In this document: positions 10,372 to 32,152 of the stretch, piece by piece | Position numbering within the stretch: the stretch's first letter is position 1 | Layout of the letters: each line of letters starts with the position of its first letter | Origin: Peromyscus leucopus | Lineage: Eukaryota > Chordata > Mammalia > Rodentia > Cricetidae | DNA: 64,000 nucleotides | Reading direction: 5' to 3' | Assembly (NCBI RefSeq): GCF_004664715.2 | Contig: NC_051074.1 | Coordinates: 22,484,058 to 22,548,057 of the forward strand | Notes under the pieces: model-generated | Databases searched by the model: none | Told to the model about the DNA's origin: nothing | Seen by the model: only the letters and a program-made list of their open reading frames with translations | Translations under genes and position numbers: made by a program

Positions 10372-10872
10372 TGTAGCAGGAATCTTAAAAGTTCTTATTA
10401 ATAAAATCAAACCTGGGGCCAGGTATTGGGATGAACTGGAAGATCAGAGAACAAGCCACAGCTAACCTCACCTGGTCAACTTCTCAGCTGGTCTTGTGTC
10501 CTCAGACTGGAAGCCTCTGAGTCCTCATCAGCTGAACTGTGTTGCTCCAAAGCCTGGAAGCTTATGCAGCCAAATGCTTAAACAGCCAAATGCTTCTAGT
10601 TTCTGGTCCTCACGCCTTATATACCTTTCTGCTTTCTACCACCACTCCCTAGGATTAAAGGCTTGCTTCCTGGGATTAAAGGTGTGAGTCACTATGCCTG
10701 GCTGTTTCCAATGTGGCCTTGGACTCACAGAGATCCCAGATGGATCTCTACCTCTGGAATGCTAGGATTAAGGGCGTGTGCTATCACTGCCTAACTAGTG
10801 GCTTTTCTGTTCTCTGACCCCAGATAAGTTTATTAAGGCACACAATATTTTGGGGAACACAATACCACTACA
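10372..10872 (-). mobile_element. Solo LTR of an endogenous retrovirus-like element, copy 1
   Basis: A 501-bp element with TG...CA ends, read on the minus strand as TGTAGTGGTATTGTGTTCCC to AAGATTCCTGCTACA. Flanks GGTGTG (10366-10371) and GGTTTG (10873-10878) are a 6-bp target duplication with one mismatch. The minus strand carries a TATA-like TATAAGGCGTGAGG box and, downstream, a CAG|GTGAGG splice-donor-like site. It interrupts an L1 3' end. No internal retroviral sequence is present. Confidence 0.85.
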
Positions 10873-14882: not shown

Positions 14883-15404
14883 TGTAGCAGGAATCTTCAA
14901 AGTTCTTATTAATAAAAATCAAACCCGAGGCCAGTTATTGGGGTGAATACTGGAAGGTCAGAGAGACAGAACAAGCCACAGCTAACCTCACCTGGCCAGA
15001 TCCTCAGCTGGTCTTGTTTCCTCAGACTGGAAGCTTCTGTGTCCTCAATCCAGAATGAATCTCAGCTGAACTGTGCTGCTTGAAAGCCTGAAGTTTAACC
15101 AGCCACATGCTTAACCAGCCAAATGCTGCTAGTTTCTGGTCCTCACGCCTTATATATCTTTCTGCTTTCTACCACCACTCTCTGGGATTAAAGGCTGGCT
15201 TTCTGGGATTAAAGGTATGTGTCACCATGCTTGGCTGTTTCCAATGTGGCCTTGAACTCACAGAGATCCAGAGGGATTTCTGTCTCTGGAATGCTAGGAT
15301 TAAAGGCATGTGCTATCACTGCCTAACTAGTGGCTTTTCTGTTCTCTGACCCCAGATAAGTTTATTAAGGTAAACGATATTTTGGGGAACACAATACCAC
15401 CACA
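14883..15404 (-). mobile_element. Solo LTR of an endogenous retrovirus-like element, copy 2
   Basis: A 522-bp element of the same family as 10372-10872 and 23879-24413. On the minus strand it starts TGTGGTGGTATTGTGTTCCC and ends GATTCCTGCTACA. Perfect 6-bp target duplications CATTAT lie at 14877-14882 and 15405-15410. The minus strand carries TATATAAGGCGTGAGG and, downstream, a CCAG|GTGAGG donor-like site. No internal region. Confidence 0.92.
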
Positions 15405-23878: not shown

Positions 23879-24124
23879 TGTGGCGGTATTGTGTTCCCCA
23901 AAATATTGTGTACCTTAATAAACTTACCTGGGGTCAGAGAACAGACAAGCCACTAGTTAGGCAGTGATAGCACACGCCTTTAATCCTAGCATTCCAGAGA
24001 TAGAAATCCCTCTGGATCTCTGTGAGTTCAAGGCCACATTGGAAATAGCCAAGCATGGTGACACGCCTTTAATCCCAGAAAGCCAGCCTTTAATCCCAGG
24101 GAGTGGTGGTAGAAACCAAAAAGA

Positions 24125-24131
24125 TATATAA
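24125..24131 (+). promoter_or_regulatory. TATA box of solo LTR 3
   Basis: TATATAAGGCGTGAG. The same box occurs in solo LTRs 1 and 2. The 5' end of the LTR-Sgk3 retrocopy aligns about 30 bp downstream of the T of this box, the expected cap-site distance. Confidence 0.75.
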
Positions 24132-24300
24132 GGCGTGAGGACCAGAAACTAGAGGCATTTTGGCCTGGTTAAGCATTTGGCTGGTTAAGCATGTGGCTGG
24201 TTAAGCTTTCAGGCTTTGGAGCAACACAGTTCAGCTGAGATTCATTCTGGATGAGGACTCAGAGGCTTCCAGTCTAAGGAAACGGACCAGCTGGGGAACA

Positions 24301-24312
24301 GGCAAGGTGAGA
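24301..24312 (+). promoter_or_regulatory. Splice-donor-like site in LTR (GGCAAG|GTGAGA)
   Basis: GGCAAGGTGAGATAG, with the exon end at 24306. The other two copies read CCAG|GTGAGG. The LTR-derived part of the Sgk3 retrocopy ends at this position, so the site has evidence of use. Confidence 0.7.
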
Positions 24313-24539
24313 TAGCGGTGGCTTGTTCTGTCTCTCTGATCTTCCAGCATGGACCCCAATAACTCGCCTCAGGTTTGATTTTATTAATAAGAACTTTTAA
24401 GATTCCTGCTACAACTAATAACTCAAAAGAGGGCGTCTCATGCAGGTATTGGGGTTTTTGGTGGTCTTGGGCTCTTGGAGGAAGCATTGTAAGCACAGAT
24501 GAAAAAAGTTCACTGCAACTATGTATATAGTTATAACTA

Positions 24540-29244: not shown

Positions 29245-29256
29245 CAAATGTGTTTC
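29245..29256. repeat. Target-site duplication of the LTR-Sgk3 retrocopy, left copy
   Basis: CAAATGTGTTTC, identical to 32141-32152. Outside both copies the L1 ORF2 sequence is continuous, which fixes the insertion boundaries. Confidence 0.95.
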
Positions 29257-30994
29257 TTTTTTTTAATCATTAATCTTTCTGATAATTTTATTATGCTACA
29301 TAGATCTGTATTTCTTGTGATCCAAGAAACATCAAAAGTCTAAAACTTGTTCTTAAAAATACAATATTGCACTTTAATTTTTGGCAATTAAGGGATATCT
29401 GAATAAAAAATCATACATGTACAATTTTTGTCTTGATTTATAATCAACAAAAACCTCTGTATTAAAGTAGAGCTTACAGAAGTGCCCCCAAATCAAGTAT
29501 ATACAGTGTAGGAAGGTTCAGTGTCCTGCATGGATATACCACCCATCAAAGTCAAAGCCAAGCACCGCCTAGCCCAAATCGGCTGAACATAGTTAAGCCA
29601 AAGGTGAGAAATGTTTCTGTCATCTCTTTATCAAGATAACACATGTAAGGGAAGTTTGTTCTTAGGGCAGCTAAGCTCATGACACTGTTTCCTAAAGGAC
29701 CCAAAAGACTGTCCTCCAGGAACGGGCTTCCCAAGCTGAGCACCCCCTTTTAAATAATTTCTCTGTACCTAACATCCTTTACCATTACAGATGGAGATGT
29801 TAGATGACATGTGATTTTTATGGTCTCTTTTCGGTGCTATTTCTAAGATGTATGAGGATCCAGAGGCAGGTGTGGACTTCAGACATAGCGAAAACTCTTC
29901 ATCAGCCTTCATGAGACCTCGTGTTTGTCTGATCCCTGTCACTACCAAATGAGTAATACCGAACATGTATCTGCTAAGTCACTGTTACCTTTCGTTACAG
30001 TGTAGGAGGTGACAGACATTTACACCGACCCAGATTTGCTAGTTTACTTTTTAATTCACAATTAGGTAAACATGATAGAAAATTACTTTTTTTCCTGTCA
30101 TTTTAAAAACTCGATTAGGAAGGCAGTTTTGAAATAGCTATTTGCAAAAACAGACACCAAGGTTGAGACCTACTCAACAGTCTACTAAACCTAAAGAGTC
30201 AAAAGGAACATAAATAGAAAACATTTATAATATAAATATATGACAAGAGACATTTATTTTTGGCACCACTAAAAATATCTGGTAGCATTTTATTACTTCT
30301 CAGTTCCTTGGGAATTCTAGAACTTTCTAGCCATTAAATATTGTCTTTTCCTCTAGAAGAAAAATGATGCACGGATGAGAACCAAGTATTCCAAAAGCAA
30401 AGGATTTCTTTTTGTTTTTTCTTACAGGGGCTGCAGGTGAGTAGCCTATTACTGTTCACTAGCAGCCAGGGAGTTTCTTCTGCTTTTGCATTTGAATCCT
30501 AACAAAAAGCAAATTTCAGAGAATGACTTATCATGGGAAGATAGGGTTTCATCTTAAACTGTCAGGTACCATTTGCATAGTTCTGCTATGATAAAAGTCA
30601 TAGAATTGTAGAGATCTTACTACATCTTACTTAACTGTAACAGACTATTAAAAACAGTCTATCTTGGATGTGTTAGTGTAAACTTAGCAGGGAAAAAACA
30701 GTCAATAGCAAAAAGTTATCTTTAAAAATAGGTTAATGCTAAGAATAATAGCTTTAAATTTTTGTTTAAAAATAAGCTTAATAAACAAGAATACAAAGTT
30801 CAGTTCAAAACTCAGCTCTTTGAAATGCCCTATTTCTGGCTTACAGCAGAAAACACATATTTCATAGTTTTTAACATTTATTGTAAAAATGAGGCACTGT
30901 TATACATAGTTGAATATATTCACACAAATTGGCGTTTCTGTCTCCTCCGCAGGCTTGAATTTATTTGTCCAATGGTTTCTGAATGTCAAACTGC

Positions 30995-32024
30995 TCACAA
31001 AAATAAGTCTTCTGAAGGAGGGGCGTAAGAAAAACCAACAAATGCATCGTCTGCCTCCAGAACACTGGCATTCACTATCGAATAGTCAGAAGACACACAC
31101 GCAGAATAGGGAACCGCTTCTTCCGTGAAGACTGTGTCGAAGTTCCTGATATCACCTGGTCCGGCCACATTAGGATTAAATGGTGGTGGGATCTTTTTTT
31201 GTACAAGGTCAGTCCAGCTGAGTGATTCAAAAAAGGGATGATTCTGGATTTCAAGAAAGTCTTCTTTGGCACCAAGTCAATTCTGCCTGTTTTTTTCTAG
31301 GAGTTCTTCCAGAATGGACCACGCTGTGAGGCTCACGCCTGGCCTCAAGTTCAGGGGCTTATGAAGAATATTATCATACATTTCAGCAACATCCCGGCAG
31401 TAAAAAGGAGGCAGTCCATACAGCATTTCATAGAGAACAGCTCCCAGGCACCACCAATCCACGGTGTTGTCATAGGGCTGTTTTCTAGTCACTTCAGGTG
31501 CAAGGTACTCTGGTGTCCACAAAAGGTTGTGGTGGTATCGGAAATAGCAATTCCTTCTTTGCAAAGCCCAAAATCTGTTAAGACAACATGCCCCATTGAA
31601 TCCAAAAGAATATTTTCTGGCTTCAAGTCTCTGTACACTATTTTGATGGAGTGCAGGTAACCCAAGGCGCTGGCGATTTCAGCAGCATAGAACCTCGCTC
31701 TGTGTTCAGGAAAAGACCATTCTTTTTGTAAGTGGAAAAACAGCTCTTTTCTGCTGAGAACTATTTTTTTCTGTAGCACTTTGACAGCATAGAATTTTCC
31801 ATCCAGTTTCCGCTTTGCAAGAAGAACCTTGCCGAAGCTGCCCTTTCCAATAACTTTTAAAAAATCAAAGTCAGTTGGTTTTAGCATGAGGATTTCCAGT
31901 TGGTCCCAGGTTGATGTTCTGTGAGGTAGAATGTGGCTTCGGAGCACTTCTTTCATCCTCATCTTCCGATGGATCGGACTGGTGCCAGGGGCTGTCCATT
32001 TGAAGGAATGCTCTGACATCTGGA
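30995..32024 (-). pseudogene. Sgk3: Sgk3 coding-derived part of the retrocopy
   Basis: Segment derived from Sgk3 coding exons after the PX domain. Three reading-frame sections are visible: a shifted start (reads out of frame from an incidental ATG at 32017-32019), the correct frame from [10 protein letters not shown] to TTTTFCG, then a -1 shift to TPEYLAPEV through LEKNRQ, where a stop interrupts. After the stop, similarity continues to the SEDLFL terminus. Most codons still match SGK3, so the insertion is moderately recent compared with the L1 that hosts it. Confidence 0.93.
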
Positions 32025-32140
32025 CTCGACAGTTCCTCAGCTGATCCTGTTTCCTCAGACTGGAAGGTTCTGAGACCTCATCCCAATGGCTCTCAGCTGA
32101 ACTGCTGCTTGAAAGCCTGAAGCTTAACCAGCTAAAAGCC
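32025..32140 (-). other. LTR-derived leader exon of the retrocopied transcript
   Basis: On the minus strand it reads GGCTTTTAGCTGGTTAAGCT ... GTTCAGCTGAGAGCC ... CCTTCCAGTCTGAGGAAACA ... GGAACTGTCGAG, aligning with 24154-24306 of solo LTR 3. It starts about 30 bp after the LTR TATA box and stops at the LTR donor site. It has one TTAAGC repeat unit where solo LTR 3 has three. The target duplication abuts it directly, so it belonged to the inserted RNA. Confidence 0.88.
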
Positions 32141-32152
32141 CAAATGTGTTTC
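32141..32152. repeat. Target-site duplication of the LTR-Sgk3 retrocopy, right copy
   Basis: CAAATGTGTTTC, identical to 29245-29256. Confidence 0.95.

Follow-up and report, generated by a model that had tools for sequence, protein, structure and literature searches.

Which RNA gave rise to an intronless copy of Sgk3 that begins with a piece of LTR? The question is raised by an insertion on the minus strand of the window, i.e., the whole 64-kb stretch of DNA analyzed here (C12:22484058-22548057). The insertion is very probably a processed pseudogene of an LTR-headed, spliced, and polyadenylated Sgk3 mRNA. That an LTR-started Sgk3 mRNA was copied into the genome is, at the level of sequence, strongly supported by two discoveries in the window's own assembly (1840 contigs totaling 2.475 Gb), namely, the source LTR itself and another insertion carrying the same junction.

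Anatomy of the insertion

The earlier note on this DNA had described one insertion, bracketed by a 12-bp duplication and composed, in transcript order, of 116 nt of LTR, Sgk3 sequence, a 3'UTR with AATAAA, and an A tail. The sequence bears out both parts of this description. Specifically, the exact 12-mer CAAATGTGTTTC stands at either end of the insert and occurs only these two times in the window. The chance of a 12-mer match at the insert ends, allowing ±5 nt of slack, is approximately 7e-6. The insert reads from the LTR (32140-32025) into Sgk3 at 32024 and onward to the tail, and its features are:

29245-29256, no strand: target-site duplication at the insert 3' end, exact 12-mer
29257-32140, minus: whole LTR-Sgk3 mRNA retrocopy, 2884 nt
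29257-29264, minus: A tail, 8 A
29265-31165, minus: Sgk3 e17, comprising the end of the reading frame, the stop, and the 3'UTR
29287-29292, minus: AATAAA
31166-31743, minus: Sgk3 e11 to e16; one nucleotide of e13 is lost (window only), and e15 has CGA>TGA
31743-31744, minus: e9/e11 junction, e10 absent (parental e10 C5:139226903-139227034, 132 nt)
31744-31936, minus: Sgk3 e7, e8, and e9; e8 has one extra A in the window, absent in C1436
31937-32024, minus: Sgk3 e6, 88 nt, starting TCCAGATGTC (parental C5:139216428-139216515)
32025-32140, minus: LTR first exon, 116 nt, ending at the LTR splice donor (115/116 identical to C5:139214341-139214456)
32141-32152, no strand: target-site duplication at the insert 5' end, exact 12-mer

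The introns of the parent are absent, and exons e6-e9 and e11-e17 are colinear with the gene on C5. Contig C1436 was rejected as an independent copy: aligned with the window locus over 9.9 kb, it has 4 mismatches and 81 gap openings, and in all likelihood it is a duplicate, unpolished contig from that locus. The e15 stop is common to both. The inserted A in e8 and the lost G in e13 may be assembly or allele differences, because the duplicate contig does not have them. When the flanks of the insert were joined in a script, one alignment crossed the join (joined positions 443-786, 67.5%). Its partner, some 2 kb upstream of another Sgk3 copy (on C6), is a sequence that we take to be L1; this alignment lends modest support to insertion. 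An Rfam scan of the window at gathering thresholds gave no match.

The parental gene and the recorded transcript

The parental Sgk3 gene lies on the plus strand of C5. Its PX exons occupy 139199808-139209819, and e6, the exon that follows them, occupies 139216428-139216515. The earlier note had predicted that an LTR of the insert's family would be present on the same strand in the intron before the exon encoding DVRAFLQ. Such an LTR is indeed there, at about C5:139213686-139214563, with a foreign stretch within its upstream part and flanks (CATAAA/CATATT) that are alike at 4/6 positions. Its segment C5:139214341-139214456, read on the plus strand, is identical to the LTR piece of the insert at 115 of 116 positions, and it ends at the same donor, CTGTCGAG|GTGAGG, 1971 nt upstream of e6. 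LTR variants 68T and 74C are common to the window copy, C1436, a copy on C4, and the parental LTR, and are absent in the four next-best genomic LTRs fetched (L005-L008).

The acceptor side agrees. In the parent, ttttcag precedes e6 (cag|TCCAGATG), and the exon starts with TCCAGATGTC, that is, at the junction base of the insert. Joining the LTR donor to the Sgk3 acceptor leaves zero bases over in the insert, as had been claimed for the AG|GTGAG donor and the next base of Sgk3; the contrary case, in which no Sgk3 exon starts at the junction, is not what the C5 gene displays. Protein fragments from mammals independently point to the same exon edge. Among 14 retrieved mammalian fragments with PDVRAFLQ, all 11 that extend into the intron (P0054-P0064, with P0057 and P0058 nearly identical) have Ser immediately before this motif, and the three spliced fragments (P0002, P0003, and P0010) have His there. 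The mammalian exon edge would thus lie at the junction, because the unspliced fragments read S-PDVRAFLQ, as AG|T CCA would give.

The events that produced the insert can be reconstructed provisionally. Transcription would have started just downstream of the TATA box in the sense LTR that lies in the intron preceding e6 of Sgk3. From that start, 116 nt of transcribed LTR would have served as the first exon, with the LTR donor spliced onto the e6 acceptor (..GGAACTGTCGAG -> TCCAGATGTCAGAG). Skipping of e10, removal of the introns, and polyadenylation would have completed the transcript. The fusion RNA was presumably present in germ cells or the early embryo, where L1 enzymes would have copied it into the window locus. 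Germline expression is what inheritance of the copy would call for, and the A tail together with the duplication points to L1 as the copying machine. The observed marks of this history are the parental intronic LTR with its donor, the acceptor at the junction base, the lack of introns, the loss of e10 at its exact edges, the tail, and the duplications. Among the observations that count against it, the target site in the window, TAC|GAAACA, is not a clean L1 endonuclease motif, and three amino-acid changes among the differences from the parent that the window and C4 copies share are odd for a functional parental allele and give room for an intermediate copy.

Where did the RNA begin? Counted from the first T of TATATAAGG, the TATA box of the parental LTR, the 5' base of the insert is 29 nt downstream, and approximately 29 nt from a TATA box is the usual distance of a transcription start. 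The C6 copy begins at the same LTR base plus one extra G, such that the best LTR matches start at its base 2 or 3; an extra 5' G can arise from copying of the cap. The C4 copy, however, carries 36 nt more LTR upstream of the start in the window, the TATA region included, so not every such RNA began at the same site. We infer a start within the LTR from the TATA spacing and the 5' end held in common with C6, with C4 opposing. The notion that the LTR served as promoter and first exon thus stands on the splice join, the TATA spacing, and the C6 5' end, and is weakened at the promoter by the further upstream reach of the C4 copy.

The earlier note also supposed that the fusion mRNA would encode a kinase without the PX domain. 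A kinase deficient in that domain only is not supported as the product. Parental e10, which is flanked by ccag and gtgagt, is missing between 31744 and 31743. Its loss keeps the reading frame and removes 44 residues, presumably the alpha-C glutamate, beta-4/5, and the hinge of the kinase, so that the product without e10 would be expected to lack kinase activity. Translation of the parental fusion mRNA from its earliest in-frame ATG, at nt 142 (MDSPRHQ), would span 378 codons with e10 or 334 without it. Two ATGs lie before this one, at nt 60 (an 8-codon ORF) and at nt 122 (53 codons, out of frame). Given the absent e10 and the two upstream ATGs, the recorded mRNA is not a simple source of a PX-less kinase. 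In a protein search with Sgk3 (8000 candidates scored), the matches listed (120 of 612) are mostly full-length Sgk3; a few of them lack the PX Pfam domain, for example P0204, from a bat, and none of the PX-less entries among those listed is named from a deer-mouse-like rodent.

Further LTR-headed copies and the source of the template

An Sgk3 query against the genome returned 20 matches from 17 candidates, all scored. The loci are the C5 parent, the window locus, C1436, C4, C6, and older pieces on C11, C22, and C14. The older pieces are 67-79% identical; the one on C14 is the exon of another kinase, and no LTR was present in the stretches examined of the C11 and C22 retrocopies, of which the 5' ends are only partly covered.

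The C4 copy is a second insertion. It has other flanks, its own 11-bp duplication AAAAGTTTAGG, and a nearer poly(A) site, while its LTR-e6 junction and its e10 skip are identical to those in the window. The C6 copy is a third insertion, with a 16-bp duplication AAGAACTTTAAATCTC, an A-tail site that is different again, and e10 retained. Its 202-nt LTR piece extends beyond the usual donor position, where it reads AGAGGAG and not AGGTGAG, and joins e9 at CCTCAG|GTTCTTC. Thus, an LTR heads each of the three Sgk3 insertions with at least 96% identity, and PX exons are absent from all of them. Judged by resemblance to the L1 endonuclease target TT|AAAA, the site is good for C4 (TTT|AAAA), fair for C6 (GAT|AAGAA), and poor for the window copy.

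Two accounts would dispense with a spliced LTR-Sgk3 mRNA. In one, the LTR piece inserted later, at 32024/32025, into an ordinary 5'-truncated Sgk3 retrocopy. A single duplication pair surrounds the whole insert, the LTR piece lacks TG and CA ends, and the same join recurs on C4; we consider this account refuted, with next to no probability left to it. In the other, reverse transcriptase switched templates from Sgk3 mRNA to an unrelated LTR RNA. L1 chimeras of such a type have been described (PMC13174262, in the part available), but here the junction runs exactly from donor to acceptor, the source LTR sits in the parental intron, and the C4 insertion has the same junction. A template switch is accordingly very improbable and is rejected for the window and C4 copies; for C6 it is a candidate.

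A weightier rival accepts the spliced mRNA and questions its immediate source: instead of two copies made from the parent, the window and C4 insertions could both derive from a master, an LTR-Sgk3 retrocopy that was itself transcribed and that is now unseen or unassembled. One splicing event would then explain the e10 skip in both. The two copies also share six differences from the reference parent, of which three change amino acids, two are synonymous, and one lies in the 3'UTR, versus none of five amino-acid changing among the parent's private differences. (Sites with a gap in either copy were set aside, and C6 was compared from e11 on only.) At the residue of one shared R>W change, R or K is present in 5/6 relatives, the five in which the motif was found; at those of a second R>W and of the D>G change, R and D, respectively, are present in 6/6. 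At five comparable sites of the six, C6 has the parent's base at four and a third base at one. Yet no third such locus exists among the 17 scored Sgk3 candidates, and neither known copy can be the master: C4 lacks the distal 3'UTR present in the window copy, and C4 has more LTR than the window copy. Two of the six shared differences affect CpG sites and may have arisen in parallel, and an old parental allele would share the differences too. We therefore regard a master copy as unlikely, although a serious contender, and for the six differences we moderately favor an older parental allele over an unseen intermediate.

The C6 copy poses a separate problem. The source of its LTR exon may be an allele of Sgk3 with an LTR in intron 8, which is missing from the assembly because it was lost, is polymorphic, or was left unassembled. 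This proposal, which has about an even chance of being right, fits the join of CCTCAG to the start of e9, with a downstream CAG|GTTTGA that would serve as the donor. It also fits the distance between the C6 LTR piece and known LTRs: the best match is 93% (best 40 of 1838 candidates), while the Sgk3 part differs from the parent at 18/1712 aligned sites, and within C5:139125000-139252000 the piece matches the known LTR alone, at 84%. Alternatively, an LTR RNA from another locus could have been joined by trans-splicing or by a template switch. In favor of these alternatives, the LTR and the Sgk3 mRNA both read AGGTT where they meet, which would allow a microhomology jump, and a closer LTR could exist beyond the best 40 of the 1838 candidates. 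GTTTGA is, moreover, a weak splice donor. Probably, then, the assembly lacks the source of the C6 LTR, or else the join is the product of a trans event. As a separate observation, a short SINE-like part of the upstream region of the LTR has 11 other matches in C5:139125000-139252000, at 73-77%.

The most interesting part of these results, and the least certain, is that all three Sgk3 retrocopies of at least 96% identity begin with an LTR and that, for one of them, a search of the assembly did not find the LTR in question. As all three recent copies are LTR-headed, LTRs may have been the main germline promoters of Sgk3 in this rodent lineage, with at least two different LTRs joined to two different exons. 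With no match above 93% to the LTR of C6 among the best 40 of 1838 candidates, retrocopies may also archive promoter LTRs since lost from the population. We offer this reading tentatively and rate it somewhat below even.

The LTR family, its donor, and known systems

The window contains three other LTRs of the family, each with AG|GTGAG at the position that corresponds to the end of the insert's LTR piece:

10372-10872, minus: 6-bp flanks CAAACC/CACACC, 5/6 alike; donor AG|GTGAG
14883-15404, minus: TG..CA ends, 6-bp duplication ATAATG; donor AG|GTGAG
23879-24413, plus: 6-bp duplication ACTAAT; donor AG|GTGAG

ERVK-like traits are thus present, namely TG..CA ends and 6-bp duplications that are exact in two of the three window copies. 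Abundant nonautonomous ERVK-like elements are reported from the deer mouse (PMC10089650, available in part), and the present family resembles them in its abundance, 6-bp duplications, and TG..CA ends, a likeness drawn at the level of these traits. The donor is intact in 17/17 genomic LTR copies inspected, the parental one included; these copies are best matches or window loci rather than a random sample, and the three retrocopies were set aside.

A genome-wide scan for an exact 32-nt pattern ending in NCNAG addressed what follows the donor position. The pattern is followed by GTG at 1,466 places, by non-G at 105, and by G plus non-T at 49, with GT followed by non-G left out of the counts. The 105 comprise 24 'HV' places (four of them Sgk3 copies), six 'HTH' places, and, by subtraction, 75 'HTG' places, which were taken as mutated donors and left out of the reading. 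All 20 non-Sgk3 'HV' places were read: 14 are LTRs that lack the segment running from GTGAGG to ATTAATAAG (in the parental LTR, this segment is 85 nt long), five are unspliced LTRs, and one is another join, to sequence that we take for element-internal. Among the 14 shortened LTRs, six also have BLAST matches that resume just beyond that AG, and the other eight were assigned by visual inspection; as four of the 14 fall within a 0.23-Mb span of C8, the independent cases number at most 11. GT..AG excision in 14 of these 20 odd places suggests that RNA of the element itself is spliced from this donor. Microhomology deletion with later spread is a possible alternative source of the shortened LTRs; that two sequence types (AAC and ACC) follow the join argues for more than one event. 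The six 'HTH' places are three unspliced LTRs, two with a shortened LTR end, and one, L092 (C12:65709675-65709815), in which the LTR is joined to sequence without an assignment. All 16 of the 49 G-plus-non-T places that were read (14/15 GG/GA and 2/34 GC) are unspliced LTRs. No clear fusion of the LTR exon to another host gene was seen among these 20 'HV', six 'HTH', and 16 G-plus-non-T places.

Retrocopies are DNA records of RNAs from the cells that pass DNA to offspring. A copy whose 5' end is at a likely LTR start site, and which passes from the LTR donor to a host exon, shows at the DNA level alone that an LTR and a host mRNA were joined in or near the germ line. With the source LTR still in place, the start site, the donor, the acceptor, the exon skip, and the choice of poly(A) site are all readable. 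Scanning for retrocopies that start at the start site of an LTR and exit at its donor could map ancient germline use of LTR promoters in any genome.

LTR-driven chimeric host transcripts of the rodent germ line are known from RNA. Sgk3 resembles them in its sense intronic LTR, TATA box, inferred start, and donor into a downstream host exon; unlike them, the Sgk3 fusion is known from retrocopies alone. Our literature search, which included the available part of PMC9343867, returned no description of a retrocopy that starts with an LTR exon derived from its parental gene. Related systems exist. Retrocopies of MIR302CHG, made by L1, record alternative exons of their parent (PMC7692494, in the part available). 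The window copy is likewise intronless, with an A tail and target duplications, and likewise reveals splice forms of its parent, but its first exon is an LTR, the source of which still resides in the parent. In mouse, the fz-ica allele of Sgk3 carries a sense ETn insertion in intron 6 and yields aberrant transcripts containing ETn (PMC6466679). There, too, an LTR element in an Sgk3 intron, in sense orientation, is spliced into Sgk3 RNA; fz-ica, however, is a mouse mutation involving a different element, and the accessible portion of that report mentions no retrocopies. Finally, chimeric mRNA/L1 insertions with splice-site junctions, for which trans-splicing is proposed (PMC13174262), are also retrotransposed chimeric RNAs with a junction at an exon edge. 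Their partner is L1, whereas the window and C4 copies pair an LTR with a host gene, and, with that LTR in the parental intron, splicing in cis is possible.

Further Sgk3 retrocopies

Other retrocopies were located in the Peromyscus leucopus assembly (G000):

C4, about 105871968-105873930 (L031): second Sgk3 retrocopy, with the LTR-e6 join
C6, about 16653364-16655500 (L044): third Sgk3 retrocopy, LTR-headed
C11:14185075-14188270 (L018): decayed, old Sgk3-like retrocopy
C22:62081248-62084443 (L023): decayed, old Sgk3-like retrocopy

The C4 copy contains the TATA region of the LTR, skips parental exon e10, and uses a nearer poly(A) site. In the C6 copy, an LTR with an altered donor is joined to Sgk3 e9, and e10 is retained; among 40 scored of 1838 genomic candidates, no LTR matched its LTR piece at >93% identity. 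The C11 and C22 copies show 67-79% identity to Sgk3, with no recognisable LTR in the portions of these loci that were inspected. Parental intron 9 (C5:139226805-139226902), which immediately precedes the exon skipped in the C12 (window) and C4 copies, is only 98 nt.

A probable duplicate of the window locus

C1436:76000-85900 (L032): duplicate contig of the window locus, rich in indels

Two 1-nt indels of the window copy, in e8 and e13, are absent from this duplicate. At LTR position 83, C1436 and C4 carry G, whereas the window and the parent carry C; mis-polishing, polymorphism, or conversion could each account for the difference between C1436 and the window.

Related LTRs altered at the donor

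C3:148037400-148040400 (L073): same-family LTR, donor position joined directly to other sequence
C12:65709675-65709815 (L092): end of the LTR exon, then unrelated sequence ATATTATTATTTG...

L092 is possibly another fusion. The sequence joined in L073 is perhaps element-internal, and L073 may be a spliced copy of the element. Among the 20 odd donor places read, 14 LTRs (L057, L061, L064-L072, L096-L098) lack the segment running from the donor to an AG farther downstream, a pattern resembling the return of spliced RNA to LTR form by reverse transcription.
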